From a virus, in IMG/VR virus record IMGVR_UViG_3300023174_000183, positions 1 to 59,996 of that record: DNA of 59,996 nt; one strand, given 5' to 3'. The notes below the pieces were generated by a model. That model was not told the DNA's origin, made no database searches, and worked only from the letters and a program-made list of their open reading frames with translations. The position numbers and the translations under genes were made by a program. Below are positions 650 through 43,843 of the stretch, one piece after another; position 1 is the stretch's first letter; each line of letters starts with the position of its first letter.

Positions 650-1804
650 TTAATTATATTTACTACTAAAATCATATCCTGCCTTCATTGAATCAATCTG
701 TTGCTGTTGATAATCATCATCTGACCAGCAATAGTTAAATTGACCGCATGTGCCATTGACTTCAATTTGATAAATGTCCAAATATTTTCCCAATATTTTT
801 CTAATTTCTATTGGACTGTCGGTACCAAAGCTTCTGATCAAATCAACCCGCCCAATGGGCAAATACCCCAGACTTAAATTAACGTCCGCAGGATCTCGAT
901 TATTATCCCTCAGCCATTGTTGAAATCGATCCTGCTCTTGATCATGCCATGGCATACCATTACCATAAGTGACATTATTGCCCCATTCAATATCAAACTC
1001 GCCACTGTAGTATTTGAGTTCAGTAATGGCCTCACATATTGTGTCAGTCAGTACTGGGGCATGTTCATCACGAAAAACCTCAAACAATGTTTTACCGACC
1101 TGTGTCCAATGCATGTAAACTCTGCCAAATTCTCGATCATATCCATTAGTCAAAAACAACTGCCTGTGCTCATACGTTAATTCATAACGCTGGGCCTGCA
1201 GGAATGTAGTAATCTGGCTAGGACGCACCCATTCTGGTAATACTGCCTGTTTACGCTGACTCAATATCAATGTCTCAATTTCGTGGCAGATATTGTTGAG
1301 TTGCCTGATGGCATATTTGGTTTCATAATCAGCCAGTTTATAATACTCACTGAGATTCCAAGCAACCCCTTGTAATCTTTCAAAATGATTATGCAGACGA
1401 TTCATGGCCTCGTGTTTGACACTGAGTCCCAAATTTTCATCATCCCACCCAATGGGATAATCACTATCAAATCTCACAACATCGGGAGTAAAATAATCTT
1501 CAATTATATAAGACCTTAACCCTGCATCTTGCCAGATCTTTTTTCGATTAAAAAGATTAATTCGACGAATATGCTGATTAAGTTCATTACAGAGATAATT
1601 TAAATCTCTAGCAGTTTCAGGAAATCCCATGAAACAGTAGTTTTTTTCTAGCGGTCTTTCTGACTTTAGTAGTTCTTTAAGAGCACCGACCCAATCTTGA
1701 GCCAACAAGTGTACATCAGGGATTATCCAGTAATCCAATGTGTCAGACTTGTTAGTGGGATTTCTTAAAGTGACTTTAACAGTTGATGGATTGATACCAC
1801 TCAT
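650..1804 (-). CDS. Unknown 384-residue protein at the end of the radical-SAM array
   Basis: 384 codons from ATG 1804, preceded by GAGG at 4-5 bases, overlapping the end of the upstream radical-SAM gene by 29 bases. I recognise no family. Visible landmarks are an N-terminal DYWIIPDVHLLAQDWVGAL stretch, a charged, helix-rich middle part with many Trp/Tyr, a segment TYGNGMPWHDQEQDRFQQWL and an Asp/Gln-rich C-terminus. There is no signal peptide or membrane segment, and Cys residues are few and not arranged like a metal cluster. The tight overlap with six radical-SAM genes suggests a partner or substrate protein of that pathway (inference). It is soluble by composition. It could equally be an unrelated conserved phage protein that travels with the cluster. 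Confidence 0.75.
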   Translation of the reverse strand: MSGINPSTVKVTLRNPTNKSDTLDYWIIPDVHLLAQDWVGALKELLKSERPLEKNYCFMGFPETARDLNYLCNELNQHIRRINLFNRKKIWQDAGLRSYIIEDYFTPDVVRFDSDYPIGWDDENLGLSVKHEAMNRLHNHFERLQGVAWNLSEYYKLADYETKYAIRQLNNICHEIETLILSQRKQAVLPEWVRPSQITTFLQAQRYELTYEHRQLFLTNGYDREFGRVYMHWTQVGKTLFEVFRDEHAPVLTDTICEAITELKYYSGEFDIEWGNNVTYGNGMPWHDQEQDRFQQWLRDNNRDPADVNLSLGYLPIGRVDLIRSFGTDSPIEIRKILGKYLDIYQIEVNGTCGQFNYCWSDDDYQQQQIDSMKAGYDFSSKYN

Positions 1805-3077
1805 AAACCTCAGGCCTTGTGCTCAAAATATCTGCTAATGTGTATGTATCTGATCTAATGGCTTCTAATTTTAAAATTCTTGATTTGCCTTTACACAACC
1901 CTGATTGATATTCATTGGGCCATTGCTCGGCAAATGTAGGTCGAGTTTTGAGTTGTATCAGAATGTCTCGCAATGCGCCCGATGTCGTGGGCAGTAGTTC
2001 GTCTATCCAGGCATGCAACATGCCTCGAGGCAACGCTAGAGGCGAAAGTAGGATATCTGGACTAAAGCTAAAAACCACTTTGGCCAAGATATCCACACCC
2101 AAATCATCTGCTAACTTTTGAATATTCGCTATTTCAAACATACCCGGAAGGGTAAGTGTGAAATCAATTCTCATCTGACGACGATGCGTAGCGATTCGAA
2201 CACCAGCCTTAAAGTTTTCAAGCCACGCTGCATAATCGAGACCTGTTCGTATATACTCTCCAATTCGTCCCGTACCATCGATGCTTGCACATATTTGCCA
2301 GTCTCGTAGCCCAACCAAAATATCACTGTAGAGATTGATACCACGGTAATTGACGCGGCTAAGATTTGTGTTGTATCTAGCGTAAACATTTTTACCATCT
2401 CCCAGTTCAACAATTCGTCGCATATAGCGCCAATGTTGTTCATACATTAGAGGCTCACCGCCTACCCAATAAACTTCTTCAATTTGATGGTTCTCAACTG
2501 CTGCTGCAAACTCCTGCTCAATTTGTGTTTCTTGAAAATATTCGATTTGTTTTTTTATTTCTGACCGCATCCAATTATTCTTGGTATCATGCCAGTTGAT
2601 CATGTCGTGCTGTCGTTGTTCGGTTTCCCAGGCACTGCTTAACATGTCGCCGCACATACGGCATTTGAAATTGCAGAGATTACTGAAACGGTAATCCCAG
2701 CTGACAGGTTGCATGGTAGTATACCCCGATGCATCTGTGGTTTCCCATATGCTATTGTACTTATGTCCGAACAACTGATTAAAATAGCTGCGGTATACAT
2801 CGGTATTTAATAGCTTATTATTGCATACTTCACACTCGGGCAATGTTTCTCCCGCCATCATACGTCGACGCACCGACTTCATGTGCTCGCTATTCCAATG
2901 CTGCTCTAGTGTGATAGGAATGTACTTGCCTGTGCCGGCCCCGGTGTCGATATACTGTTGGAAGTTTTGTGCTGGCTCGCGACTAGCACAGCACATTCTT
3001 CGCTCAGTTTGAGGACTTAAATAGGTATGCGTCCAGGGGGCCATGCAAAAATTAGGTTTGCTGTTGGGGATAGTCAT
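1776..3077 (-). CDS. Radical-SAM enzyme, N-terminal twitch type (subfamily A, copy 3)
   Basis: 433 residues if started at ATG 3077 (MTIPNSKPNFCMAPW). This start aligns with MTLPNS of the upstream paralogue and falls 13 bases after its stop; a longer frame reaches 3134 but would overlap it. The radical-SAM 4Fe-4S motif is C135-NFK-C139-RM-C142-G, followed by a GGEP SAM-binding motif in VYWVGGEPLM. An N-terminal region carries FCMAPW, MCC and CEVC cysteines, a SPASM/twitch-like auxiliary-cluster region placed before the barrel instead of after it. This fits the family named twitch domain-containing radical SAM protein, whose reactions are largely unknown. It overlaps the 384-residue gene. The enzyme would cleave SAM to a 5'-deoxyadenosyl radical; the substrate is not predictable. 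Confidence 0.88.
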   Translation of the reverse strand: MTIPNSKPNFCMAPWTHTYLSPQTERRMCCASREPAQNFQQYIDTGAGTGKYIPITLEQHWNSEHMKSVRRRMMAGETLPECEVCNNKLLNTDVYRSYFNQLFGHKYNSIWETTDASGYTTMQPVSWDYRFSNLCNFKCRMCGDMLSSAWETEQRQHDMINWHDTKNNWMRSEIKKQIEYFQETQIEQEFAAAVENHQIEEVYWVGGEPLMYEQHWRYMRRIVELGDGKNVYARYNTNLSRVNYRGINLYSDILVGLRDWQICASIDGTGRIGEYIRTGLDYAAWLENFKAGVRIATHRRQMRIDFTLTLPGMFEIANIQKLADDLGVDILAKVVFSFSPDILLSPLALPRGMLHAWIDELLPTTSGALRDILIQLKTRPTFAEQWPNEYQSGLCKGKSRILKLEAIRSDTYTLADILSTRPEVYEWYQSINC

Positions 3078-3090
3078 TACAATACCGAGG

Positions 3091-4287
3091 TCAATACCCC
3101 ATAGCCCTGGCAATTTCGGGATGTGTTTCAGCAAAACTTTGCTTTCTATATTGATCGGCCAATTTCATTACCATTAAAAATTTTTGGCCATCGCTGCCAG
3201 ACCCGTTACGAATAAACTGAACAATGCGTTCAATTTCTGCACGATATTTGGTGTGAAACTTGTGATCAGTCAATCTTTCGATCACCAACTGTTGTGCTGC
3301 GGGGGTCATGCGGCCAATATTCATGTGCCAGGGATCATGCAACATATTGAAATATATGTAGTCAAAATTTTGAGCGCTAGCCCAGTCACAAATTTCTGGC
3401 AAATAATAGACATTCTGAACATTCATTGTGGTGCAGAGTTGTGTGATAATTTTCTCACTGCGCATGGCTGAAAACTTATTCAAATTTTCTTGCACTTCCA
3501 ACCATTCTGCACCGTACCGTTCGAGTTCAAACCGCTCGCCGATGTTATCTATGCTGAACGCAATTTCCACACGATTGAACTTGCTCCACAGTTCAGCAGC
3601 ATCAGGGAACACAGTGCCATTGGTGTTGTAATGAATGTCAATGTGCTGGCTGTGGCCATGTTCTGCGGCATACTCCAACAAATCAAAATGCTGCTGAATC
3701 AGAAAGGGCTCCCCGCCAGTGAACTCAAAATATCTGATGTTGGGCAGCAGACTTTTTAGGTTTTCCCAAAAGTCAGGGCTTTCTCGGGGCCACGCGCCTT
3801 GCTGCAGAAACTTATATGCCAGATGTTCTTTTCTGTTCGCAAGAGCAGGAACATAATCAATTTCTTCCTGGACCCACTTGCTGCTGCTCCAGCTGCCGCA
3901 AATACGACATTTGAGATTGCAAATATTGCCCAATTTAAGATCAATGAACCACAATTGGTCAGGGTTGACATTGTGCCAATCCACTTGATCATAATACTCT
4001 TTAAGACGAATCCGACTGTTGATTCTTTTACTGGTTCGACCTGCAGCCTCCTCTTCCCAGCAACGATCGCAAGTAGAGGGTTTATTGCCTGATAAAAATT
4101 CCTGCCTAAGATTTTGCATATACTCACTGTGATAAATCTCTTCAAGATTATGCTCTTTAAGCAAATATTTTTCGCCAGTGGATTTGGTTATTTCATCTTT
4201 GGCCAAACAACAAGGACGAGCTGTGCCAATAGGACTAGTCTCAATGCTGATCCATGGAAGTATACAAATGCTATTAGGTAATGTCAT
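3091..4287 (-). CDS. Radical-SAM enzyme, N-terminal twitch type (subfamily A, copy 2)
   Basis: 398 residues from ATG 4287, overlapping the upstream paralogue by 14 bases. The radical-SAM cluster is C123-NLK-C127-RI-C130-G and the glycine motif is FEFTGGEPFL. The N-terminal auxiliary-cluster cysteines are ICILPW, RPCCLA and CDRC, in the layout typical of a SPASM/twitch fold with W, PCC and CxxC, here ahead of the TIM barrel. Further barrel signatures are HYNTNGT and AFSIDNIGERFELERYG. It is the shortest of the six and has no C-terminal extension. The close relation to the genes on both sides shows tandem duplication. Reaction and substrate unknown; peptide or glycan modification is possible from the operon context. 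Confidence 0.9.
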   Translation of the reverse strand: MTLPNSICILPWISIETSPIGTARPCCLAKDEITKSTGEKYLLKEHNLEEIYHSEYMQNLRQEFLSGNKPSTCDRCWEEEAAGRTSKRINSRIRLKEYYDQVDWHNVNPDQLWFIDLKLGNICNLKCRICGSWSSSKWVQEEIDYVPALANRKEHLAYKFLQQGAWPRESPDFWENLKSLLPNIRYFEFTGGEPFLIQQHFDLLEYAAEHGHSQHIDIHYNTNGTVFPDAAELWSKFNRVEIAFSIDNIGERFELERYGAEWLEVQENLNKFSAMRSEKIITQLCTTMNVQNVYYLPEICDWASAQNFDYIYFNMLHDPWHMNIGRMTPAAQQLVIERLTDHKFHTKYRAEIERIVQFIRNGSGSDGQKFLMVMKLADQYRKQSFAETHPEIARAMGY

Positions 4288-5617
4288 GTGGTAAAGAGCT
4301 CAATTCAGTAAATACTTGCCAGAAATCTTCATTTCTGACTCGATCAAGTTTGGCGGTCTCCGCAACAAACTTATTCCAGTGTTGGCTGTTGTCCTTGGCC
4401 ATCATAAAGTTGATGGCACTTTCAAAACCATTTGTGGCTCGTTTTAAATCGTCCTGCGGGCGCAACCATTCCAAATGTTTACGGTACGCCGGTTCAACAA
4501 TTTCTCGCTTAAATTGTTCTGGTAATACATCAATTCTGTGCCATTCAGGACTCTGACAAATATTAACATTGAAATCTTTGGCTTTTATTAAGCCCAATTC
4601 AGTCCATTCGCGGTGGAAATCTAATACGTGCAGTATATTGGCAGCACTAACAGTTGCACTGATATAAAAGTCTGCGTGTGGAACTTCACGCATCATACGC
4701 TCGCGATTAGCCACAGTTTGCTGCCAATCAGCACCTTTACGCAGGATTTCTGCACGGTGACCGCTAGCATCCAGACTAGCACCAACATTGACAGTTTTAA
4801 AATGCTTCCAGTACTCAAACACATGTTTATTTTTATATCTGAGCTCACTAAAATTAGTATTATACATGAGTCTGACATCAGTCTTACCCAGCTCGATCAA
4901 TTTTTCCAGTAATAGGTAATGCTCTTTCATGATCAAAGGTTCGCCACCAGCAAAATAAACTTGTTCCAAATGCGGAATGTGTGGTTGCATTTGCTCCCAA
5001 ATATCCATCTCATGGCGACCAGCGTACTCCACTGTGGTCATTTCTCTGCCCAAAACATCTGGGTTTCTATTATAAAGTTTAATGTGATCACCATACCAAT
5101 TACTGCTGAAGATAGGCCCACAGGTTCTGCAACGGAAATTGCAGAGATTACTGAATCTCACATCCCAGTATCTAATATTGAATTCTGGATGCTCGCCATC
5201 TTCAAGAGTCTGTTCTACTTCTGCAATATGATGACCATAATTTCTGTTGGCATCATACCGCATACTGAAAAATCCACTTTTCTCTTGTTCATAGCATTTG
5301 TTGCATTCCTTACTGGATCGTTCATTCAGCATGTTTTGCCGCAACTGTTTATAGGCACCCTGATTCCATACAGTCACCATATCATCCTTGCGCAGATCGC
5401 CTAAAGGATGCCAGTAGTCTGCCAAACAACAAGGATACACTCTCCCATCAGGAAATGCATGCATATGTACCCAAGGTAACATGCAAAATGTCTTGCTCTC
5501 CAAAAGCAATTCTTTTTGTTTCTCTGTTAAACTTTCTAGATCGGCAAAATATGGTGCTCTGGCTGTGTAACTATAGCCTTTGTTGTAAAAACCTTTGATG
5601 TCGTTTGGTTCGCTCAT
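4274..5617 (-). CDS. Radical-SAM enzyme, N-terminal twitch type (subfamily A, copy 1)
   Basis: 447 residues from ATG 5617. The start overlaps the stop of the upstream gene as ATGA, giving translational coupling. The cluster motif is C159-NFR-C163-RT-C166-G and the SAM motif is VYFAGGEPLIM. The N-terminal auxiliary region is the clearest of the set: CMLPWVHMHAFPDGR, then YPCCLADYW, then CNKCYEQE, a SPASM-like pattern (C, PCC, CxxC) before the barrel. About 40 extra N-terminal residues distinguish it from the other A copies. It is the first of three A-type enzymes in the transcript and follows three B-type enzymes. Having both subfamilies in one operon suggests several steps on one substrate or several related substrates (inference). 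Confidence 0.9.
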   Translation of the reverse strand: MSEPNDIKGFYNKGYSYTARAPYFADLESLTEKQKELLLESKTFCMLPWVHMHAFPDGRVYPCCLADYWHPLGDLRKDDMVTVWNQGAYKQLRQNMLNERSSKECNKCYEQEKSGFFSMRYDANRNYGHHIAEVEQTLEDGEHPEFNIRYWDVRFSNLCNFRCRTCGPIFSSNWYGDHIKLYNRNPDVLGREMTTVEYAGRHEMDIWEQMQPHIPHLEQVYFAGGEPLIMKEHYLLLEKLIELGKTDVRLMYNTNFSELRYKNKHVFEYWKHFKTVNVGASLDASGHRAEILRKGADWQQTVANRERMMREVPHADFYISATVSAANILHVLDFHREWTELGLIKAKDFNVNICQSPEWHRIDVLPEQFKREIVEPAYRKHLEWLRPQDDLKRATNGFESAINFMMAKDNSQHWNKFVAETAKLDRVRNEDFWQVFTELSSLPHDIT

Positions 5618-7014
5618 AGTGTGGTGTACCAGTTGGCTAATTGTGGAAACGCTGTGATAAAATCTTTATTTCGTCGTTGATCGTATTGAGAAAAAAATCT
5701 TTTAAAATCTTTTGCCAAAAGGTTAGTATCAGTCTGACAATCTGATTCATTGTAAGTTTTTTTCTCAAATGATATTTTGGACTCTTTGTGTGGGTCAACG
5801 ACGTTATTCAAATATACAGAAAATCTACGTAGTTGATTAACGGTATAGTCTCCAAAAAAATTGTTAAAGTCTGATTCAGACAAAAAAGTATCTAATTTTT
5901 TAGCATATTCTGATCTTAGATTGTCTGGCAAAACTACAATATTTTGGAAAGTGGGCCAGCGTAACGGATTAACCGATATCATCATCCTGCCCGGGGACAA
6001 GGTTGACGGCAAATTTTTCTTTTTTTCCAATGCCCATTCCAAAAATTCAACGAATCCATCAATTGACGGTACACTGGGTGTAGTACAAATTCCAAATTGT
6101 GATATAGCAGGATGCTGAATCACTTTATCAACATTTTCTTCCCACTGCTGCCAACTTATTCCATCACGGACATATTCTGATTTTTCTCCAATGGACTCGT
6201 TACTGCTCCAAATTTCTATGTGATTATCCAGTTGGCTACAGATATCAAGAAATCTGTCAAGAGTCTCGCTGTCATATGCCAAATTGGTGGTCATATGTAT
6301 ATGGCAGGAACTCTTCTTAGGATTATCCCGCAACCATTCTAAAAGTTTCCAAGTGTGGCCACTCATCATAGGTTCCCCACCAGTGATTCTTAAAATTTTC
6401 AACGATTTGTGTAAATCTGTTTCCCACCATTTAAAAAATGCTTCGGCGTAAGGATTTTCGTCCCCAAACTTATATACAGAAACATCGTCGCAAGATGATA
6501 TATAAGTCTGCCGTAAATCAGACTCTAAATTTTTATAAGGCCCTGCTCTGCGTATATCGCGCGCCCAAGTGCTGCTAATTGCAGGGGAACAGTATGCACA
6601 CCCAAGTTGACAGGTTCTATCAAAACTAATTTCTAGATAATCTAAATCGTAATCAGCATTTGGATCTCCATTAAATGCTGCGTCTAATCTTGGTAGGCTG
6701 GACATCTCGCTGAATAACACTCGATCAGACACCGACTCTGGACTGGTTTCTTCCATAACCCAACAAAATTGACAGTTTAATGGTTTTTCTCCACGTTGCA
6801 TCATGGCCCTCTGTTCTTTTTTGATCGGAGTATTGTGTAATGCACTAGGATTATTTCTAACCTCTTCCAAATTAATCGCATGCGGCGGGTTATGGTGACA
6901 ACTGGTAGTCCACCCTGCATGTAAATGTATACTAGCATTGTACCATTTTGCGCCGCAGAAACTTGGACTTTTTGTATCTAAAACATTTAATTTAAATATT
7001 TTTGGGTTTGTCAT
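5614..7014 (-). CDS. Radical-SAM enzyme, N-terminal twitch type (subfamily B, copy 3)
   Basis: 466 residues from ATG 7014, coupled to the upstream gene by ATGA. The radical-SAM motif is C135-QLG-C139-AY-C142, followed by SPAISSTW, a variant distinct from the CRxCG form of subfamily A. The SAM glycine motif is LRITGGEPMMSGH. The N-terminal auxiliary region reads CGAKWYNASIHLHAGWTTSC followed by HH, a conserved ALHNT and CQFCWVMEE. The C-terminus has a signature shared only with the other B copies: SQYDQRRNKDF then a Phe-Pro and a terminal NWYTTL. It is more AT-rich than its siblings. Function beyond radical generation is unknown. Confidence 0.9.
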   Translation of the reverse strand: MTNPKIFKLNVLDTKSPSFCGAKWYNASIHLHAGWTTSCHHNPPHAINLEEVRNNPSALHNTPIKKEQRAMMQRGEKPLNCQFCWVMEETSPESVSDRVLFSEMSSLPRLDAAFNGDPNADYDLDYLEISFDRTCQLGCAYCSPAISSTWARDIRRAGPYKNLESDLRQTYISSCDDVSVYKFGDENPYAEAFFKWWETDLHKSLKILRITGGEPMMSGHTWKLLEWLRDNPKKSSCHIHMTTNLAYDSETLDRFLDICSQLDNHIEIWSSNESIGEKSEYVRDGISWQQWEENVDKVIQHPAISQFGICTTPSVPSIDGFVEFLEWALEKKKNLPSTLSPGRMMISVNPLRWPTFQNIVVLPDNLRSEYAKKLDTFLSESDFNNFFGDYTVNQLRRFSVYLNNVVDPHKESKISFEKKTYNESDCQTDTNLLAKDFKRFFSQYDQRRNKDFITAFPQLANWYTTL

Positions 7015-8363
7015 AGTGTGTTGTACCAGTCGATCAGTTGCGGAAATGTCTTTTTAAAATCTTTGTTGCGCCTCTGATCATATTGTTGGTGAAATTGTTT
7101 GAAATCGTTATGTAATGCCGGGGGGTCAAATGCATCACTGTGCGGTGTTTTAACAATGTCCAAATAGTCAATTAGACGTTGCACATGATTTTTCTCGTGT
7201 TCGTGCAGCATACAATGGTCATTAAATTTATTTAACCAATCAATTAACCGCTGTCTATGTTTCATGCGAATGTTGTCGGGCAACACTAACGGACTTTGGA
7301 AACTGGGAAAGCGCAGAATATTTAATGTAAAGTTAGGGTTATTCTTCCCCCATTGGCTCTTCCATTCCATGAGCATGGTTAGAAATTCTGGCAAACTTTC
7401 CAGGCAAAGAGCATTAATTGTGCACATGACATGTAATCCGCGCAACCGGCCGCTGCGCATCAAAAACCACATGTTACTGGTCCACTGCTCCCATTCTAGT
7501 CCATCACGAATGTACTCTGCATGATCATGCATGCTCTCGTTACTGGTGTAGAGATCTAGTTCAATGCCCGCAGTGCTGTCCAGTAACTCTTCCAGTACTG
7601 ATTGATCGAAACACAAATTGCTGTTGATGGCCAAACGAGTCTGACTAGCACCACGATTATTCTTGAACCAATCCAACAGACGTTTAGTATATCCGCTCAT
7701 GAGTGGTTCGCCGCCAGTGATACGCAATTCGGTCAATGTTTGATGTAGGTCCGATTCCCACCATTTGAAGAAGGCTTCGACGTACGGATTAGTTTCACCG
7801 AGTTTATAGAGTTGAGCACTATCATGCTCGTGAGTGAAATGGTTACGACCGTCGCTGACCAAATTGACGTATGCTCCATTTCGATGAACATCACGTACCC
7901 AGCTGGTGCTGAAAGCAGGATTGCAATAACTACAGGCCAGTTGGCAAGTTCTGTCAAATGCGATTTCCAAAGTTTTAAGATTGATGTCTTGATTTGAATC
8001 CGTTTGATATGCATGTTCTAGGTCCTCATCTTTATAAATTACAGTTTTATACACTCGATCACTGATGGCATCTACCCCCATGTCTTCAATTTTCCAGCAG
8101 TACTCGCAACCAGCAGGGCGCTGCCCTTGTTGCATCTGATGACGTTCTTGCTTTTTGCGTGACGTATTATGCAACGCACGTGGATTTGCCTCAACTTCCT
8201 CTATCGACACTTTATGTGGCAAAGGATGATGACAACTGGTAGTCATGCCTGACCCCAACCATATGGTGGCATTGTACCATTTAGCAGCGCAAAAACTAGC
8301 CGATTTGATATCAATTACTCTGCGACGGTATTCTAGATCTGTTTCGTTATGCTGTTTCGGCAT
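7011..8363 (-). CDS. Radical-SAM enzyme, N-terminal twitch type (subfamily B, copy 2)
   Basis: 450 residues from ATG 8363, overlapping the upstream copy by 17 bases and the downstream copy by ATGA. The cluster motif is C140-QLA-C144-SY-C147 followed by NPAFSTSW; the glycine motif is LRITGGEPLMSGY. The N-terminus has CAAKWYNATIWLGSGMTTSC with HH, an ALHNT block and CEYCWKIED, the B-type auxiliary-cluster layout. The C-terminus carries QQYDQRRNKDF and ends DWYNTL, nearly the same as copy 3, so these two are the most recent duplicates of the array. Their divergence elsewhere shows that both are kept under selection, not as redundant copies. Substrate unknown. Confidence 0.9.
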   Translation of the reverse strand: MPKQHNETDLEYRRRVIDIKSASFCAAKWYNATIWLGSGMTTSCHHPLPHKVSIEEVEANPRALHNTSRKKQERHQMQQGQRPAGCEYCWKIEDMGVDAISDRVYKTVIYKDEDLEHAYQTDSNQDINLKTLEIAFDRTCQLACSYCNPAFSTSWVRDVHRNGAYVNLVSDGRNHFTHEHDSAQLYKLGETNPYVEAFFKWWESDLHQTLTELRITGGEPLMSGYTKRLLDWFKNNRGASQTRLAINSNLCFDQSVLEELLDSTAGIELDLYTSNESMHDHAEYIRDGLEWEQWTSNMWFLMRSGRLRGLHVMCTINALCLESLPEFLTMLMEWKSQWGKNNPNFTLNILRFPSFQSPLVLPDNIRMKHRQRLIDWLNKFNDHCMLHEHEKNHVQRLIDYLDIVKTPHSDAFDPPALHNDFKQFHQQYDQRRNKDFKKTFPQLIDWYNTL

Positions 8364-9720
8364 AATACTTGCACTCCTGCCAGAATTCTTTCATTATGGG
8401 AAAGGTTTTAATAAAACTAAATCCGCGACGTTTGTCGTATTCATTAAAAAATCTATAAAAATCTGCTCGTTGTTGCTTTATATACTCAGGGTCTAGACTT
8501 TGCCCATTTTTCATCCAGGCAATATTTCTGCGCATGCGTTGAACTTCATAATCTTTAAATCCATCAAATCTATCAACACCTTCGGGCAGTTGATTGGACG
8601 CCATCCAATCGGCAACATCTTCTAGTATTTGCATATAACTAATAGGCAGAATCTGCAGGCTTTGCCAGGCGGGTTGTCTGAGCAGTGGCGTATCAAACCA
8701 GACACGCTGATAAGTCTGACTATGTTTTTTGCGTTGTTCCAGAACAATTTCCAATAACTTTCGCAGACCCAGAATATTGAGATTGCTCATGGTAATGATG
8801 TAGGTCAGACTGTTTCTGTAAGGCACTCTGGTTAAAAATTCCTCAGTGTTATGCAAACACTTGTCTAGATTGAGACCACCGCGTATGTACTCGCTCTGTT
8901 CTTTGATGCCCGAATCCAAACTCACATACTGCATGAAGTGTTCAATTTTTGTGCCCCGACACAGTTGTTCAACCTTGTGCATGTATTTCTCAAACAATGC
9001 ATCATCCACGCTGAAATTACTGGTGACGTCCACATGCAAATCACTCTTGGGCAGGGCCAAGATATAATCAAACACTCGATGCGTATTCTTGTCCATGAGT
9101 GGCTCACCACCAGTCATGCGAAAATGCTTGAGGTGAGGATACAGCTCTGGCCACCAACGCCAGAAGGCTTCCACATAGGGATTTTCTTCACGAACCGGAA
9201 TGGGTTTACGGCGCCCCTGAAAGTGTATGGGATCATTGTGCGGTGTGGTGGTGGGATAGGCCCCCCAGCGATCAATTTCTTTGCCCCACTCGGTGCTGAA
9301 CTGTGGACTGCAATAACTGCAGGCCAGATTACATCCGTGACTAAAGTTAACTTCCACATAACTGGGTGTGGCATCCTGATCCCAGGAACCATGGGCTATT
9401 TCTTCATAGTGTTCTGCTGCCCAAGGTTCGCCACTGCGATAATGCCTGTCACTAAGTTGGCCGTTGTCTTCGGCCGACCAACAATAAGCACACTCTGGCG
9501 GACGTTGCTGCTCCAACATCAACTTACGTTGTGCTTTCTTGTGCGCAGTATTGTGTAATGCGCCGGGATTGAACGTCAAAGGAGCAGCATCAATTTCATG
9601 CAAAGGAGGATGATAGCAGCTATTGGTCAACCCAGTAGGTAGATGCAAACTAACCTGCTGCCATTTGGCCAAACACAATGCGTGCCCTAGCTTCTCACGC
9701 ATCAACTCGGCTGTGCCCAT
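8347..9720 (-). CDS. Radical-SAM enzyme, N-terminal twitch type (subfamily B, copy 1)
   Basis: 457 residues if started at ATG 9720 (MGTAELMREKLGHALC). A longer open frame to 9819 would overlap the glycosyltransferase-like gene by about 90 bases, and a GTG at 9738 is another option. The cluster motif is C130-NLA-C134-SY-C137 with SPQFSTEW after it; the glycine motif is FRMTGGEPLMDKN. The N-terminal CLAKWQQVSLHLPTGLTNSC then YHP, ALHNT and CAYCWSAED match subfamily B. The C-terminus has NEYDKRRGFSF and a Phe-Pro, then an extra tail. It opens the radical-SAM run, directly after the GT genes. No clear Shine-Dalgarno is seen, so it may rely on coupling to the gene ending 10 bases upstream. Confidence 0.88.
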   Translation of the reverse strand: MGTAELMREKLGHALCLAKWQQVSLHLPTGLTNSCYHPPLHEIDAAPLTFNPGALHNTAHKKAQRKLMLEQQRPPECAYCWSAEDNGQLSDRHYRSGEPWAAEHYEEIAHGSWDQDATPSYVEVNFSHGCNLACSYCSPQFSTEWGKEIDRWGAYPTTTPHNDPIHFQGRRKPIPVREENPYVEAFWRWWPELYPHLKHFRMTGGEPLMDKNTHRVFDYILALPKSDLHVDVTSNFSVDDALFEKYMHKVEQLCRGTKIEHFMQYVSLDSGIKEQSEYIRGGLNLDKCLHNTEEFLTRVPYRNSLTYIITMSNLNILGLRKLLEIVLEQRKKHSQTYQRVWFDTPLLRQPAWQSLQILPISYMQILEDVADWMASNQLPEGVDRFDGFKDYEVQRMRRNIAWMKNGQSLDPEYIKQQRADFYRFFNEYDKRRGFSFIKTFPIMKEFWQECKYYAETA

Positions 9721-9730
9721 AAAATTGCTT

Positions 9731-10627
9731 TTATTCACGAACCATCGGACCTTTGTTTTGGAAATTACTGCGATAGTGATGTTTGAAAAACGCACTGTCA
9801 GTGGGGTCCATATCAACAATGCTTAGTCCCAGTCGAGTTCGTAGAACCTGCCCCAATTCTGCACAGTGCTCGGGCTCGTGTATATGATACTCTTGCCAAA
9901 GTGCAGATAATGCATCAAAATCCTGAACTTGGCGATAATCCCAGTCGGTCAGCATGGTTCGATAGGTGCCCAGTCTGGCACCGTAAATGGCCCAGAATCC
10001 ATTTTCCACATCTGCTCCCACGCTCTGCCATATGCATAAGTTGTCATAATTGCGACTGTGTACACGTTGCTCAAAGTTTTCTAATGTAGGTTTGGCACCG
10101 CGATCCAAGCACATTTTAACACCTTCGCGGAATCCCGCTCGCCAGGCCTGAAAGGGCGTCTGATTGGGATAAGTCACACTGTAGCGGTCATTCATAGCCC
10201 AGTAGTTGGGATAAAAGCAGAACTCTACATCATTGGCCGCTGAGCCGTCACTGGCTTCATGAGTCTTCATGTTGTGTACAAATTCTTTAGTCCAGCAGCT
10301 CATGCCGCCATTGCCATACTGCAGACCATTGATGATGTTTCTGGCTTTCCAGCGAAACACACAGTCTCGATTGGTTGTATCCAGCTTCAACTGCAGATTA
10401 AAAAATTCTGGATCTGGTAAATTATCGCCGTCAATCAGAACAAAGCGATCGGTATCGCTGGCGTCGGCAGCAGCCTTGTGCGCAGCGTCTGAGCCTTTGA
10501 CTCCGTCCACGCGTTTGGCCCAGGGCACCATGTTCTGTATCTTAACCCAAAACTCTTCCTTCTTGGGTTCATCGTATGTGAGGTAAATGCAATCTAAATC
10601 TGCAACATCAACTATTTCTACGCTCAT
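9731..10627 (-). CDS. GT-A-like glycosyltransferase candidate with DGDN motif
   Basis: 298 residues from ATG 10627. The N-terminal half looks like a Rossmann-like GT-A fold: a hydrophobic strand IYLTYDEP, then VPWAKRVDGVKG, a DAAHKAAAD helix and FVLIDGDNLPDP. The DGD triplet stands where GT-A enzymes place the metal-binding DxD. Further on are FRWKARN, GNGGMSCW and two Trp-rich regions. Proteins with the WAKRVxGVKG and DGDN pair are, to my recollection, frequent in marine T4-like phages, annotated as hypothetical or glycosyltransferase. It overlaps the preceding 124-residue gene by 20 bases and is followed by the first radical-SAM gene. The sugar donor and acceptor are unknown, and catalytic activity is inferred only from the motif. 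Confidence 0.7.
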   Translation of the reverse strand: MSVEIVDVADLDCIYLTYDEPKKEEFWVKIQNMVPWAKRVDGVKGSDAAHKAAADASDTDRFVLIDGDNLPDPEFFNLQLKLDTTNRDCVFRWKARNIINGLQYGNGGMSCWTKEFVHNMKTHEASDGSAANDVEFCFYPNYWAMNDRYSVTYPNQTPFQAWRAGFREGVKMCLDRGAKPTLENFEQRVHSRNYDNLCIWQSVGADVENGFWAIYGARLGTYRTMLTDWDYRQVQDFDALSALWQEYHIHEPEHCAELGQVLRTRLGLSIVDMDPTDSAFFKHHYRSNFQNKGPMVRE

Positions 10628-10982
10628 AATATTCCGTTTCTAAATAGTCATCTTCTACAACAATGCTAGCATGACCTTTAACTACTTTAACACCTTTGTT
10701 GCTGCGAGTCAAAGCAAAATGATGCAGGTATGTGGGCTCAACTCGAATTATTTTACCGTCCACTACTTTTAAAAAATTCCAATCATGTAAAATATATATC
10801 TCTCTACTGATGTGTATCCAATTATCGCCGTCAGGAAACCCGCTGCCTGAAAATCCCGTGACACAACCATCTGCATCATAGTAAGCTCGATACTCCGTCG
10901 ATGCCACAGGATGATCGGTTAGCAATTCCAAAGCCTGGAGAAATTCTGCCTCACCTGGTAGCATGAATAAATCTCTTCTCAT
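10608..10982 (-). CDS. Small unknown protein between GT-like genes
   Basis: 124 residues from ATG 10982, overlapping the genes on both sides (20 and 32 bases), which supports real translation. The sequence MRRDLFMLPGEAEFLQALE begins a helical part, followed by YRAYYDADGCVTGFSGSG, WIHISREIYILHDWNFLKVV and a Val-rich C-terminal strand set ending in Tyr/Glu-rich residues. It looks like a small alpha/beta domain without signal peptide or membrane segment. I recognise no family. Its position inside the GT run makes a role in the same pathway likely. No catalytic motif is apparent. Confidence 0.7.
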   Translation of the reverse strand: MRRDLFMLPGEAEFLQALELLTDHPVASTEYRAYYDADGCVTGFSGSGFPDGDNWIHISREIYILHDWNFLKVVDGKIIRVEPTYLHHFALTRSNKGVKVVKGHASIVVEDDYLETEYYERRNS

Positions 10983-11769
10983 AATAATGCACTGGGTAGT
11001 ATTGATTGCGATTGTTGATTCTTACTATATTATCCTGCCATTCGACATTGACATGATCAGTCACTGCTTGGGTTTCATTCCAGCCTAGAATTTGTGGTTT
11101 GAGGTGTACAAAATTGAAAAAATCTAGGCTAGGAATAGTGCAATGTTCCTGTCCTAAAATTTTAGCAGCAATGGCAAATGCAACATCTGTGGTAGGCAAG
11201 TCGTCCACTAACATCAGATGATTTTTTATCTGCTGCCAATTGTCATAAACATCACGAGCCGTTCTAAAAAAATCTGCCGAAGTCTGACTGTATCTAAAAT
11301 AATACATGCCAGTGTAAATATCTGGCAGATTATTTTCTTTAAAAATTTTTCTGTAGGGGCTTAATTTGACCTGCCGTTCATACAGATCTTGACAATACAG
11401 GCTAAAACAAATATCTCTTAACCGCAAACCAGTTAGCCAATGACCAACGTCTCGAGTAAACAACAGATCACTTTCCAGCTTGATGGTTTCTTTAAAAGGG
11501 GTTAGATAGAACACTTGCCACTCATTGCTCATTTTCCAAGATTCATTCTTGGCCCAATCTGTTTTTAATGTGATGATATGATCGAATACTTGTCGATGAC
11601 GATCTGTGATCAGCTCCAACGTCGCAGCATCCACTAGAACTGCAAACTCATGCTGCTGTTGTGTGGCTTTGATATTCAGTGCTTGCTGATAAGCCAACTC
11701 TAGATAATCAGTGATGTCGTTATTCTGTGCAATGGTCAAAAAACCTACTTGACTTTTAAATTTACGCAT
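10951..11769 (-). CDS. GT-A-like glycosyltransferase candidate
   Basis: 272 residues from ATG 11769, chosen because a GAGG lies 9-10 bases upstream; the longer frame begins with TTG at 11784. The N-terminus FKSQVGFLTIAQNNDITDYL is a first beta strand and loop, and the centre holds FKETIKLESDLLFTRDVGHW. Here a Lys-x-Glu-Ser-Asp segment takes the place of a DxD, as in nucleotide-sugar transferase folds that handle acceptor or donor sugars. Later DDLPTTDVAFAIA resembles the acidic region before the acceptor site. It overlaps the upstream GT-like gene by 8 bases. The activity is a fold-level guess from general layout and neighbours. Confidence 0.6.
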   Translation of the reverse strand: MRKFKSQVGFLTIAQNNDITDYLELAYQQALNIKATQQQHEFAVLVDAATLELITDRHRQVFDHIITLKTDWAKNESWKMSNEWQVFYLTPFKETIKLESDLLFTRDVGHWLTGLRLRDICFSLYCQDLYERQVKLSPYRKIFKENNLPDIYTGMYYFRYSQTSADFFRTARDVYDNWQQIKNHLMLVDDLPTTDVAFAIAAKILGQEHCTIPSLDFFNFVHLKPQILGWNETQAVTDHVNVEWQDNIVRINNRNQYYPVHYYEKRFIHATR

Positions 11770-12538
11770 TGGTTGCTGCCTCAATCAATCGTTGGCATTC
11801 GTCTGATAATATCCAGGCTTTGCTCATTAAATGAATATTTTGTTTGGGTAGCACAAATGCTTGTCCTGCGGTTTTCAAATAAAAGTTTGAACCTTTGAGT
11901 TCCAAACTATCAATCGGGCCGGGCACGCTGACGATGGGCCAAGGCAAATAATTTTTACTATCGGAACTGTAACCGTTTATGATATTGTCAGCAATAGTAA
12001 ATGCATAATCATTTCTAAAATTTCTAGCTTCGATATTGTAGAGGTCTCTGTAATATTGATAATTGCGCTCAATTGCACCCACCAGATCAAATAACATTTT
12101 GGTCTTGGGAGTTTTATTAAACACCATCACAGTTGCCCACAATGTATCCAGGCTATATTGGCCCATTTGATTGCTGTGTTGACTGCAGACATAATTATTT
12201 GTTTTTGTTATCTGATAATCCGACACCACATCTAAAATTTTTAGTAGATTATCATCAAAAACAAAATAGTCACCATCAATCAGAATTGTCTGATCATACG
12301 GACTCAGCTCATGGGCCAAATATCTACCACCGTTGTGCCAGGCTTCAAACTTACCGGAATCGATATTGTATCGGTGATTGATTAGATCCTGCCCCGTGAC
12401 AATGGTCACCGGCAATTTAAGATAATGCTCGGCCAGAATCTTAGCTCGTTGAGCAATGGTAGTGTAATCTATATAACCGGTATTGTTGGCAAATATCAAT
12501 ACGCCTTTAGATTTTTCTGACACTTCTAAGTTCTTCAT
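11762..12538 (-). CDS. GT-A-like glycosyltransferase candidate with DGDY motif
   Basis: 258 residues from ATG 12538, overlapping the preceding small gene by 32 bases. It shows a first strand GVLIFANNTGYIDY, a helix with AQRAKILAEHYLKLP, a strand VTIVTG and then QTILIDGDYFVFDDN. The DGD fits a GT-A DxD metal site. After that come YSLDTLWATVMVFNKTPKTK and a second acidic NDYAFTIAD, in the layout of GT-A transferases that act on glycans. No membrane anchor is seen. It is the first enzyme-like gene of the accessory operon. Together with the two following GT-like genes it suggests assembly of a short sugar chain or decoration of a protein (inference). Confidence 0.65.
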   Translation of the reverse strand: MKNLEVSEKSKGVLIFANNTGYIDYTTIAQRAKILAEHYLKLPVTIVTGQDLINHRYNIDSGKFEAWHNGGRYLAHELSPYDQTILIDGDYFVFDDNLLKILDVVSDYQITKTNNYVCSQHSNQMGQYSLDTLWATVMVFNKTPKTKMLFDLVGAIERNYQYYRDLYNIEARNFRNDYAFTIADNIINGYSSDSKNYLPWPIVSVPGPIDSLELKGSNFYLKTAGQAFVLPKQNIHLMSKAWILSDECQRLIEAATNA

Positions 12539-12824
12539 GTTGGATGTGCCATGTATTCATCACTGATTGATAACATTCTCTGGCCTGCTGCAGAAGTTCT
12601 GTTCTAAGGCATTTGATGGGATTGCCATAGACGTCTTCAACAAATAATTCATCGGTGGGCCAAGTGGACAAAAAAGCCAGCAAAGTTTGATCAACTAAAA
12701 ATAATCCGCCATTATACGCCAAATGCAGATCAATTTTAATTTTTTCCTGCAGTGCGCGTTTATTAATTTGAAAGTCGGTGGCTTGTTTAACTTGATTGAT
12801 AATATTTTCAGTGGTGGTGGTCAT
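12507..12824 (-). CDS. Small conserved phage protein, first gene of the accessory operon
   Basis: 105 residues from ATG 12824. Starts MTTTTENIINQVKQATDFQI, then INKRALQEKIKIDLHLAYNG, FLSTWPTDELFVEDVYGNPI and a C-terminal helix ending RSVRKI. I associate this pattern with a small hypothetical protein common in T4-like cyanophages and pelagiphages (recollection). It has no recognised domain, signal or membrane segment. It lies just after the terminator hairpin that closes the tail-fibre operon and before the GT-like genes, with a 32-base overlap. No good Shine-Dalgarno is visible. It could belong functionally to the fibre genes rather than the sugar genes. Confidence 0.8.
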   Translation of the reverse strand: MTTTTENIINQVKQATDFQINKRALQEKIKIDLHLAYNGGLFLVDQTLLAFLSTWPTDELFVEDVYGNPIKCLRTELLQQARECYQSVMNTWHIQHEELRSVRKI

Positions 12825-12914: not shown

Positions 12915-13856
12915 TTAGTTTACTGTTGAAGCTGCTGTCACTGAGCCCCATGTGTTGGTAAGGTTGGTGGTTTCTGGTGGTGTAACCACAACGTTGGCGT
13001 TGATGGTCATGTTGATTGCATCATCAAATGTATCAGTTGCAGCATCATTATAGTTAATGGTAAATGTGATAACGTTGCCCAACCCACCATTAGAACCCGC
13101 AGTGCCTGAAATTTTGGCCAGCACTTCCACATAGTTGGTAGTGTAGGCAGCAGTGGTATCTGTCAATTTGATCAGTGTCTGATCTGATGTTGTTAGATCC
13201 CAGAATCCAATTGCACTGCCGTCGGTGGTTAGTGTGCCGCCAGTGCCAGTACGGCCACTGGTTGTAAAATCAAAATTTAGTGTTGCCAATTTGGTACCCA
13301 ATAACGATGTCCAGGCGGTTTCTTTGGCATTATCTGCACCGTTGGTCACAGCAAAACTCAATGCAACTCTGCCACCGGCGTTGAAAAAATAACGTGCTTG
13401 ATCACTGCTGGCAAATGTCACTGTGCGAACTTGTTGGAATGTTGTTGGGCTTGCAACGTTCCATATTGCACTCAATGAGGTAGTTGCCGGTGTGCCACGT
13501 GTGCTGTTAAAAGTTGCACGATTGGTATATGCAGTAGAAATCTTTGATGATAGTGTGCTTAAAGCAGCGATGGTATCGCCAGCAGTGGGACTTGTTAGCC
13601 CTGAACCGGCACCTGCTTGGTGGATTAGTATACTGTTTAATCTTGCCAACAAGGTTGACCATTGGGTAGCAGTTACAGTATCACCGGTGGCCACTGCCGA
13701 CAATGTGGTGCTCTGACCATATCCCTTGTCGCCTGAGCCCACGCCCCATACTGTGTTAATGTTTGCTACTGCATTATTGGCAGTGCCATCAGCATTGCCT
13801 GTTGCAAATGTATTGTAGTGATCGCGTAGGATCAAGTCACCGGTCTGATAAGCCAT
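12915..13856 (-). CDS. Virion structural (tail/fibre-associated) protein
   Basis: 313 residues from ATG 13856, with a good ribosome site (AAAAGGAAC) and a late-promoter-like CTAAATAG just upstream. The start MAYQTGDLILRDHYNTFATG is, from memory, shared with structural proteins of marine T4-like phages. The rest is rich in Thr, Ala, Ser, Gly and Asn, typical of beta-structured fibre or decoration proteins, with FNAGGRVALSFAVTNG and FTINYNDA segments that read as beta strands. No Cys, no membrane segment. It is the last gene before the terminator and follows two paralogous fibre proteins, so a role as fibre tip, connector or adhesion protein is likely. Confidence 0.8.
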   Translation of the reverse strand: MAYQTGDLILRDHYNTFATGNADGTANNAVANINTVWGVGSGDKGYGQSTTLSAVATGDTVTATQWSTLLARLNSILIHQAGAGSGLTSPTAGDTIAALSTLSSKISTAYTNRATFNSTRGTPATTSLSAIWNVASPTTFQQVRTVTFASSDQARYFFNAGGRVALSFAVTNGADNAKETAWTSLLGTKLATLNFDFTTSGRTGTGGTLTTDGSAIGFWDLTTSDQTLIKLTDTTAAYTTNYVEVLAKISGTAGSNGGLGNVITFTINYNDAATDTFDDAINMTINANVVVTPPETTNLTNTWGSVTAASTVN

Positions 13857-13869
13857 TTTTTAGTTCCTT

Positions 13870-15591
13870 TTAACTATTTAGTTTGACGATGGCTTCTACC
13901 ACGCCTTCGCCGTCTTTTTCTTTATTTTCGAGAGATCTGCCAATGACATTGAACGCAGTCATCTCGTCCCGTCTGGCAGATCTTGCAAGTCCATTACCTG
14001 CGGCAACCAACCGGTCGCCTTTCTTAACTCGGCCAACCACTCTGACTGGTACTCTGCCACTAACCGCAACCGCAGGGTGAGTAACGTCATCACCCGCTTC
14101 GCCATTCATCAGAAAGGCAGCACGGTTACTAATTACACCAAAAACGTCTTCGCTTAGATCTTCTGCCACTGCGGTAATTTCCTTTGATCCGCCCAGAGCA
14201 ACAACAGTGCCCGGAGCATATGACTGATCAGCAGCAAATCGTTCTGCTAAGTCAGCATACTGTGCAGTGATTGATGTACCACGGAAAGTAGTTGCCCAGA
14301 CATTGCCAAATTTATTATTCGACTGACCAATATCACCCACACCATCTGTGCCTGATTTGGTAATGCTTGGCACTGACGCCGAGGTAGTTGAAATGTTTCC
14401 TACAAAATTGTTGGCATAGATGTTATTGAATTTATTATTTGACTGACCAATATCACCCACACCATCTGTGCCTGATTTGGTAATGCCTGGGACGGAAACT
14501 GATGTTGTAGAGATCAAGGATCCGATAAAATTAGTAGCGTAAATATTAGCAAACTTTGCACTACCTGAACCTATATCAATAGTGTTTGTGTTGTTGGGTA
14601 GGATTACCCCACCAACAGTCATTGATTGACCAAGCGTGGCATTACCGCTAATTGTAACTGTGGATGCGGCAGTAAATGCACCAGCAACTCTTGCAGTGCC
14701 GGCGATTGACACAGTTGTACCATTGAGAAACACCGCAGCATTTCCGCCAACAATGCCAATGGCTCGAGTTTTAACCCCAGCAGCATTGACATAAAGATTT
14801 ATATCTTTATTCAGTGTGGTATTGTTAATGACAACCTCTGAGGCAGACGCTGGTGAAATATTTAGATCTGATCCAATAGTCACGCCGCCCGCCGTTATGT
14901 TGTAACTTGTGCTGGTATTTTGATCACTGCGCAGCAATTGATTGGCAGCAATTCCTTGCAGTGACAACGCATTGCTAGCATCGCCCGAGAATTGTGCGCC
15001 AGTAATTGCGCTGGCACTTACCAGATTAAATCCTGGTTTAATTGTGCTAAATCCAGCAACACTAGCTTGCGGAGTGAAAACAGGGTCTTTGCTTAGAATA
15101 CCAACAACAGTGTTAGCAATATAAAATTTAACAACCACATGACTGACATTTGAAGTGTCTAATATGGTTTCTACCAATGCACCACTGGTGCCCGAAGTAG
15201 AAGTATACGATGGTCCCACAATAACCCAAACGGTGCCACTCCAGACTTTTAATTGTGAATTTGTCGAATCCCACCACAGATCGCCAACAACTGGATTCAC
15301 CGGTGGTGTTGATCCGGAAGCCGAACTACTGATGGCTTTCCAGTTTGCACCATTATAAACTTTCAACACACCCACGCTAGTGTCATACCAGATCTGACCA
15401 GTTAGCGGGGTCGCAGGCGGAGTACCGTAAGAAAAATTCTCCAGTAATTTTACAAAGTTTTCATTTAAAAAGACGCCATAGCCAGCATAGTTTTTACCGA
15501 TCAGGGTCAAACTTGTATTAGAGTTATTAATGGTACCATCTGCAACAGTTGCAAGTGTGGATCCCGAAGTAGTAGTGATTGTATATGACAT
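13870..15591 (-). CDS. Tail-fibre-like protein with ADLAE C-terminal domain
   Basis: 573 residues from ATG 15591. The N-terminal about 130 residues (MSYTITTTSGSTLATVADGT, then GQIWYDT and GDLWWDS) are paralogous to the start of the next upstream gene. The middle is a beta-rich fibre shaft with two near-identical 40-residue units (KSGTDGVGDIGQSNNKF). The last about 130 residues begin QYADLAERFAADQSYAPGTV and continue with GRVPVRV and VIGRSLE. This end domain recurs in the 702-residue fibre at 17744-19852 and resembles C-terminal domains of phage fibres that fold or self-cleave (Peptidase_G2-like; uncertain). An AATAAATA late-type promoter lies upstream (15611-15618). Likely host-recognition or fibre component on the baseplate. 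Confidence 0.83.
   Translation of the reverse strand: MSYTITTTSGSTLATVADGTINNSNTSLTLIGKNYAGYGVFLNENFVKLLENFSYGTPPATPLTGQIWYDTSVGVLKVYNGANWKAISSSASGSTPPVNPVVGDLWWDSTNSQLKVWSGTVWVIVGPSYTSTSGTSGALVETILDTSNVSHVVVKFYIANTVVGILSKDPVFTPQASVAGFSTIKPGFNLVSASAITGAQFSGDASNALSLQGIAANQLLRSDQNTSTSYNITAGGVTIGSDLNISPASASEVVINNTTLNKDINLYVNAAGVKTRAIGIVGGNAAVFLNGTTVSIAGTARVAGAFTAASTVTISGNATLGQSMTVGGVILPNNTNTIDIGSGSAKFANIYATNFIGSLISTTSVSVPGITKSGTDGVGDIGQSNNKFNNIYANNFVGNISTTSASVPSITKSGTDGVGDIGQSNNKFGNVWATTFRGTSITAQYADLAERFAADQSYAPGTVVALGGSKEITAVAEDLSEDVFGVISNRAAFLMNGEAGDDVTHPAVAVSGRVPVRVVGRVKKGDRLVAAGNGLARSARRDEMTAFNVIGRSLENKEKDGEGVVEAIVKLNS
14321..14486. repeat. Two 40-codon direct repeats in the 573-residue fibre gene
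   Basis: The stretches near 14321-14366 and 14441-14486 are nearly identical at the base level with an offset of 120 bases. They encode two copies of SGTDGVGDIGQSNNKF with flanks, a modular fibre-shaft unit in frame. Confidence 0.75.
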
Positions 15592-43816: not shown

Positions 43817-43843
43817 AGTAGTTGTTAAAAGGAACATTTGCCA

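Follow-up and report, generated by a model that had tools for sequence, protein, structure and literature searches.

Clusters of radical S-adenosylmethionine (SAM) genes have been noted in phages for fifteen years without an established function. According to the available excerpts of the published reports, the Campylobacter phages CP220 and CPt10 carry interchangeable five-gene radical-SAM modules in genomes with 11-12 such genes, and a role in host metabolism was proposed for these modules (PMC2853527, 2010). The Aeromonas giant phage 332-Vera (Chimallinviridae) has eight radical-SAM genes within its structural cluster (PMC12390700, 2025), a marine T4-like environmental genome holds 12 radical-SAM genes and iron-sulfur (Fe-S) accessory genes (PMC5332604, 2017), and the host-recognition clusters of pelagimyophages combine radical-SAM cassettes with glycosyltransferases (GTs) in the tail-fibre/GT region (PMC7029224, 2020). 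Here, we analyzed a 59,996-base virus record (IMG/VR record IMGVR_UViG_3300023174_000183; hereafter the window) in which six adjacent full-length genes of the N-terminal-twitch radical-SAM family, N_Twi_rSAM, lie at 1776-9720 on the minus strand. A preliminary description of this DNA had mentioned single radical-SAM genes in phages and considered a run of six far more than any known phage task requires; phages are not limited to single genes, as the clusters of five and eight and the genomes with 11-12 show. Radical-SAM clusters are thus already known in phages; what is new, within the literature searched, is the family, an ordered core of genes with partners, a bacterial counterpart, and the existence of the locus in a form that lacks the array.

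As described in the available part of the report, the CP220/CPt10 module resembles the array in being a cluster of five radical-SAM coding sequences in a large lytic phage (PMC2853527). However, the CP220 proteins are of another family: none of the seven CP220 matches reached the curated cut-off of NF033640, the NCBIfam model for N_Twi_rSAM (170 bits, whole-protein score), and the best scored 30.9 bits across the radical core only. The excerpt also places an amidinotransferase in the CP220/CPt10 module, whereas none was noticed in the window array (PMC2853527). 332-Vera is described as similar in having its radical-SAM genes among baseplate, portal, and tail-fibre genes (PMC12390700). The excerpts on the marine T4-like genome and the pelagimyophages, in contrast, specify neither families, conserved order, nor partners (PMC5332604, PMC7029224). 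No description of this N_Twi_rSAM array was found in the open-licence literature searched, which excludes most subscription journals, and NF033640, the family common to all six proteins, has no assigned function.

All six array proteins matched NF033640 over its full length and above its cut-off (275.4-397.6 bits), as the preliminary description had anticipated, and their E-values of 7e-119 to 8e-82 exclude a chance match. The Pfam SPASM model was above its cut-off for D and E, and Pfam Radical_SAM for E alone, the other five proteins falling slightly under it. Matches in PHROGs were weak and confined to generic radical-SAM families. Checking open reading frames (ORFs) and motifs bore out the earlier picture of six adjacent radical-SAM genes, each encoding CxxxCxxC, GGEP, and N-terminal cysteines that include a CxxC ahead of the radical core. 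Aligning the six proteins yielded 23 invariant columns, which include GGEP, all three cysteines of the core, and four cysteines near the N-terminus. The genes overlap by 17 (A/B), 4 (B/C), 4 (C/D), and 14 (D/E) nucleotides, E and F are separated by 13 nucleotides without overlap, and F overlaps G by 29; the mechanically called ORF for F begins at TTG 3134. The ORF layout also agrees with the array's described position after GT-like genes and before the 384-residue protein G on the same strand (Table 1).

The twitch (half-SPASM) auxiliary-cluster domain has the cysteine spacing CX9-15GX4C followed by CX2C. Proteins A-E all have this spacing. The F lineage departs from it: F keeps C-x17-CC and CX2C and lacks the glycine, and C-x17-CC is found in 90 of 91 F-type proteins.

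Table 1. Features of the array and its surroundings in the window (pLDDT, predicted local distance difference test score).
Feature	Position	Strand	Remarks
A: N_Twi radical-SAM protein, core gene 1	8347-9720	minus	NF033640 287.7 bits; kept in related arrays
B: N_Twi radical-SAM protein, core gene 2	7011-8363	minus	NF033640 285.1 bits
C: N_Twi radical-SAM protein, accessory	5614-7014	minus	NF033640 275.4 bits; groups with B clade in tree
D: N_Twi radical-SAM protein, core gene 3	4274-5617	minus	NF033640 397.6 bits; Pfam SPASM 45.8 bits
E: N_Twi radical-SAM protein, core gene 4	3091-4287	minus	NF033640 343.5 bits; Pfam Radical_SAM 43.3 bits
F: N_Twi radical-SAM protein, core gene 5	1776-3077	minus	NF033640 289.3 bits
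G: 384-residue partner protein	650-1804	minus	predicted model, pLDDT 91.8; travels with array
h298: predicted GT-A-fold protein with invariant D66-G67-D68	9731-10627	minus	predicted model, fold matches; homologues adjoin bacterial N_Twi_rSAM genes
pep: 33-residue peptide ending RKRDPFIYK, preceded by GGAGAG	533-634	minus	also in phages without array
SGNH-like ORF (label by eye)	3-536	minus	overlaps pep stop; runs off window end
h124: small conserved neighbour	10608-10982	minus	kept in related loci
h277: conserved neighbour, GT-like by eye only	10951-11784	minus	weak match to DUF7876
h258: conserved neighbour, GT-like by eye only	11762-12538	minus	without family match
h105: small conserved neighbour, flanked by h258 and fibre-type genes	12507-12824	minus	kept in related loci

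No conserved stretch emerged when the alignment of all six proteins was used for searching, and single proteins served as queries instead. In IMG/VR, D led to 68 loci and B matched at least 598 stretches, of which 80 loci were kept, and the related viral contigs carrying the array reach 356,865 bases. Duplicate proteins and loci were removed before counting orthologue motifs, pep sequences, array orders, neighbouring genes, tree sequences, identities, and associations. We defined 84 distinct arrays as those holding h298, A, and F; the bacterial loci L153 and L154 are included among the array-order and tree sequences, with one L154 protein appearing twice in the tree.

The order h298-A-B-D-E-F-G is kept in related viral contigs, and A-B-D-E-F is unbroken in all 79 of the 84 arrays for which gene orders were listed. 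This recurrence, found by the survey of phage contigs that the preliminary description had called for, rules out an assembly artefact. The earlier view of six genes as the unit did not hold, as C is present in just four of those 79 arrays. The conserved unit consists of the five core genes A, B, D, E, and F, and C is a rare, phage-specific relative of B. Among the matches listed, the nearest relative (L074) is 91-96% identical in the five core proteins and is without C. Median identity to the window is 60-75% for the core proteins, with F the most conserved at 74.8%, and 68% for h298. The corresponding values are 33-50% for h105, h258, h277, h124, and G. Two fibre-type proteins reach 39-43%, and s245 is the exception at 67%. 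The CxxxCxxC motif is intact in 92/96 A, 97/100 B, 98/101 D, 91/91 E, and 88/90 F phage orthologues, with 57 proteins of less than 40% identity or 70% coverage tallied separately.

Some relatives carry the enzymes as fused genes. D and E are joined in three loci (L081, L082, and L164), A-type and D-type domains in L070, and F with a further radical-SAM domain in L184. These fusions argue for coupled steps. One 354-kb record (G149) has 12 N_Twi_rSAM genes above the cut-off.

Starting from B or D favours phages that have the array, and we therefore used loci found through pep, the short peptide encoded beyond G whose sequence marks this locus in other phages too, to assess the association of G with the array. 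G was present in 22 of 25 array-positive and none of 31 array-negative peptide-first phage loci. Three loci (L189, L201, and L228) contain h105-h258-h277-h298, a second h298-like gene, and then pep, with no array between. The array is accordingly an optional cassette, and these loci represent the array-free state of its site.

Profile searches of NCBIfam, Pfam, and PHROGs gave no family match for G. Foldseek found no match to its predicted model in the PDB at E ≤ 0.001, and ten uncharacterised phage proteins at that threshold in a viral structure library, one of them from Agrobacterium phage Atu_ph07. The model weakly resembles a cyclophilin-type barrel with helical insertions. Cyclophilins led the fold comparison (Z up to 8.5, 137-145 residues, ~3.5 Å), a Z at the background level for such models, and assignment of G as a cyclophilin was dropped.

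For h298, the predicted model (pLDDT 90.7) appears to adopt a GT-A fold with a DxD motif, a fold that is also that of nucleotidyltransferases. The N-terminal domain gave its best Foldseek match to RmlT (E 2.3e-4), followed by matches to the S-glycosyltransferases SunS and ThuS and to HddC, and VIA-align superposed it on B4GALNT1 with a Z of 9.8 (140 residues aligned, 3.1 Å). The candidate DxD motif, D66-G67-D68, is invariant in 38 of 38 h298 sequences. Separately, ORFs of 938-1515 residues after pep in some phages (L156:4946-7759, L170:3012-5840, and L205:2333-6880) contain an h298-like domain and have weak GT2 matches.

A cellular counterpart exists in Bdellovibrionota. We sampled 144 genomes from this larger phylum along with 14 control genomes; NF033640 was above its cut-off in 40 of the former, many with several copies among the matches listed, and in none of the controls. 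Homologues of h298 and G were each found in nine of the 144 genomes, and all nine fell among the 40 with N_Twi_rSAM genes (p 4.8e-6 each, under a random model that ignores kinship). Bacterial h298 abuts N_Twi_rSAM genes in two loci (L312 and L313) and lies close by in three others (L302, L304, and L307). Hence h298 and G are tied to the array in two independent settings, phages and Bdellovibrionota. A collection of 84,980 species contributed two bacterial loci, from Oligoflexia and Bdellovibrionales metagenome-assembled genomes, each with several N_Twi_rSAM genes.

The Bdellovibrionota clusters are like the phage array in family, in having several copies per genome, and in their adjoining h298 homologues. 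One bacterial island, in genome G007, has all five core types, represented by D-, F-, E-, B-, B-, and A-type genes. The same island encodes three GDSL-type hydrolases (two below cut-off), a nucleoside triphosphate transferase, and an APH-type kinase. Unlike the phage array, the bacterial clusters have another gene order and occupy both strands, and G is mostly elsewhere. No function for them was on record in the literature searched. In the chromosomes represented by L301-L308, above all L305, several N_Twi_rSAM clusters are mixed with other radical-SAM types.

Additional genes accompany the array in relatives. Of 91 array-positive loci, 78 have a NodU-type carbamoyltransferase gene immediately following pep (e.g., L019:16784-18265). 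Two genes are associated with the array: one for an adenosine 5'-phosphosulfate (APS)-kinase-like protein, in 39 of the 91, and one for an SGNH-like protein of 265 residues, in 44 of the 91, versus none of 30 array-negative loci in either case; however, array-positive loci are longer on average (18.0 versus 12.1 kb). When loci with at least 3 kb downstream were compared alike, the APS-kinase-like gene was still found in 30 of 65 versus 0 of 17.

Some relatives also carry genes related to SAM and Fe-S supply. A SAM synthetase (MetK) gene starting at the end of pep scored 433.9 bits against TIGR01034 (cut-off 309.4). A methylthioadenosine/S-adenosylhomocysteine (MTA/SAH)-type nucleosidase lies inside the array (best NCBIfam score 80.2 bits, under the cut-off of 129), and a SUF-type Fe-S protein is encoded beside it (106.4 bits, under the cut-off of 143.4), directly upstream of A in loci of the L017, L049, and L055 types. 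MTA/SAH nucleosidases also remove 5'-deoxyadenosine, a by-product of radical-SAM enzymes. MetK, nucleosidase, and Fe-S genes were found in 5, 6, and 8 of 91 array-positive loci, compared to 0, 1, and 0 of 30 array-negative loci, and all three co-occur in L104, L134, and L237. Their role as support for the array is suggestive only.

We tentatively interpret the array as a multi-step tailoring pathway comprising the five core enzymes, C, h298, and G, most likely acting on a glycan or glycoconjugate. The cassette sits among tail-fibre genes of the same strand in a large, myovirus-like phage. In each enzyme, a core [4Fe-4S] cluster would cleave SAM to abstract a hydrogen atom, and the N-terminal auxiliary cluster may take up or pass on an electron. 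Up to six C-H positions could in this way be epimerised, dehydrogenated, or otherwise altered one after another, each enzyme presumably performing one radical step on the same product. The glycan or glycoconjugate would be built by h298 and the GT-like neighbours, further decorated in relatives by the adjoining carbamoyltransferase, APS-kinase-like, and SGNH genes, and carried on the virion tail or the host surface. Of these two, the virion is slightly favoured, since the array shares its strand with the tail genes. We suggest a glycan product because of the putative GT-A fold of h298, the flanking GT-like and decorating genes, and the nucleotide-activation and kinase genes of the bacterial island. 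Stated more broadly, and with somewhat greater reserve, a family of large, uncultured phages and relatives of predatory bacteria (Bdellovibrionota) may share a dedicated multi-step radical-SAM pathway that equips the virion tail or infected cell with a complex modified glycan or peptide, with some phages supplying their own genes for SAM synthesis, product removal, and Fe-S assembly.

Defining the unit as five ordered orthologous enzymes with two partners, an array-free locus state, and a bacterial counterpart makes the pathway testable. The partners, fused forms, and support genes indicate what to co-express, and array-positive and array-negative relatives offer a comparison for virion or envelope analysis. 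A glycan pathway would represent elaborate virus-encoded sugar chemistry, while a virion protein as the target would represent a new class of tail modification. The multi-step character proposed in the preliminary description is consistent with the conserved order and the fusions.

Several observations weigh against a glycan-tailoring pathway of this composition. In the fold comparison of h298, nucleotidyltransferases tie in Z with GT-A enzymes, and Pfam contains no GT family match for h258 or h277. The carbamoyltransferase is found just as often in array-negative loci (24 of 30) and was dropped as an array-specific pathway gene on these counts. Bacterial G is mostly distant from radical-SAM genes. 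The heavy demand for SAM and Fe-S clusters predicted earlier agrees with the MetK, nucleosidase, and Fe-S genes of some relatives, but MetK and the Fe-S gene each occur in fewer than one-tenth of array-positive loci and their associations are not significant (p 0.33 and 0.20). Finally, N-terminal twitch/SPASM domains are classically a mark of peptide-modifying enzymes, and both fibre genes and pep are adjacent to the array.

The last of these points would be expected if the enzymes instead matured a phage protein or peptide (a tail fibre or pep) in the manner of ribosomally synthesized and post-translationally modified peptides (RiPPs), for example by cross-linking or epimerisation. The SPASM/twitch architecture of the array proteins fits this explanation, as do the fibre-type genes directly upstream and the location of pep directly downstream of G, where it has a conserved C-terminus and overlaps the next gene. 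KRDPFIYK ends pep in 155 of 155 distinct sequences, partly by construction since it was the search pattern; the nine C-terminal residues are nearly or fully invariant and the residues before the pattern are also strongly conserved. However, pep is invariant at its C-terminal end and variable at its N-terminal end, whereas leader and core usually show the opposite pattern. At least 120 viral stretches, some with the array and some lacking it, contain pep in one copy per locus, and an N_Twi_rSAM gene was near only 15 of the 31 peptide-first loci having at least 8 kb upstream, with 16 lacking one. Moreover, no RiPP maturase model in NCBIfam was above its cut-off among the proteins scanned, and their Pfam matches included no RiPP recognition domain, a type of domain that profiles often miss. 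As the peptide-first scan found pep outside array phages, we demoted it as a RiPP precursor tied to the array. We consider a peptide substrate doubtful and a glycan the likelier of the two.

A third explanation is that the array provides general metabolic boosting, its members being auxiliary metabolic genes whose products act on small molecules or nucleotides of the host. Such a role is in print for CP220/CPt10, according to the excerpt available (PMC2853527), and the radical core of the array proteins is weakly similar to MoaA, QueE, and viperin models. Yet these similarities to nucleotide-acting families are far under the cut-offs, and the fixed order, fusions, and linkage to h298 and G suggest one dedicated pathway, making this explanation improbable.

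The origin of the core genes was addressed with a tree of 126 sequences. E and F each formed exclusive clades (support 1.0), and the C clade (0.99) was nested within B (B with C, 0.99). Bacterial sequences also fall into the groupings of A and D, the latter with one other phage sequence and weak support at its base (0.66). Outside several phage clades, the nearest relatives are bacterial sequences. Although the rarity of C and its nesting within B would suit a recent selfish or gene-dosage amplification of one radical-SAM gene without separate functions, this is very improbable given that the core proteins are 20-26% identical to window D, keep their motifs in nearly all orthologues, and form separate lineages with their own relatives in Bdellovibrionota, which argues against recent tandem amplification.

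Beyond h105, the same strand encodes fibre-type proteins (among them those at 12915-13856 and 13870-15591) and other virion proteins, a 4388-residue protein, and baseplate wedge and hub genes. The 4388-residue protein (19849-33015, minus strand), between the baseplate and fibre-type genes, has an FG-GAP repeat match. No tRNA genes were detected in the window, and its sigma-70-like and terminator-like sites were at chance level. Among 50,697 isolate phage records, h298 and B had no match, and D, E, and F matched only Vibrio phages K566 and K567 (22-23% identity), apart from matches of D and E to one 7,955-base marine virus record. K566 has two NF033640 proteins above the cut-off. The portal protein shares 50.8% identity with its counterparts in Pseudomonas phages (284-288 kb), Callisto and PA5oct among them, and 48% with that of Agrobacterium phage Atu_ph07 (490 kb), which places the window in this broad group of large T4-like phages. 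A T4-type late-transcription sigma factor is encoded at 43838-44716 on the plus strand, but the window has only a single copy of the T4 late promoter TATAAATA, away from the array, and this phage group therefore probably uses a late promoter that differs from that of T4.

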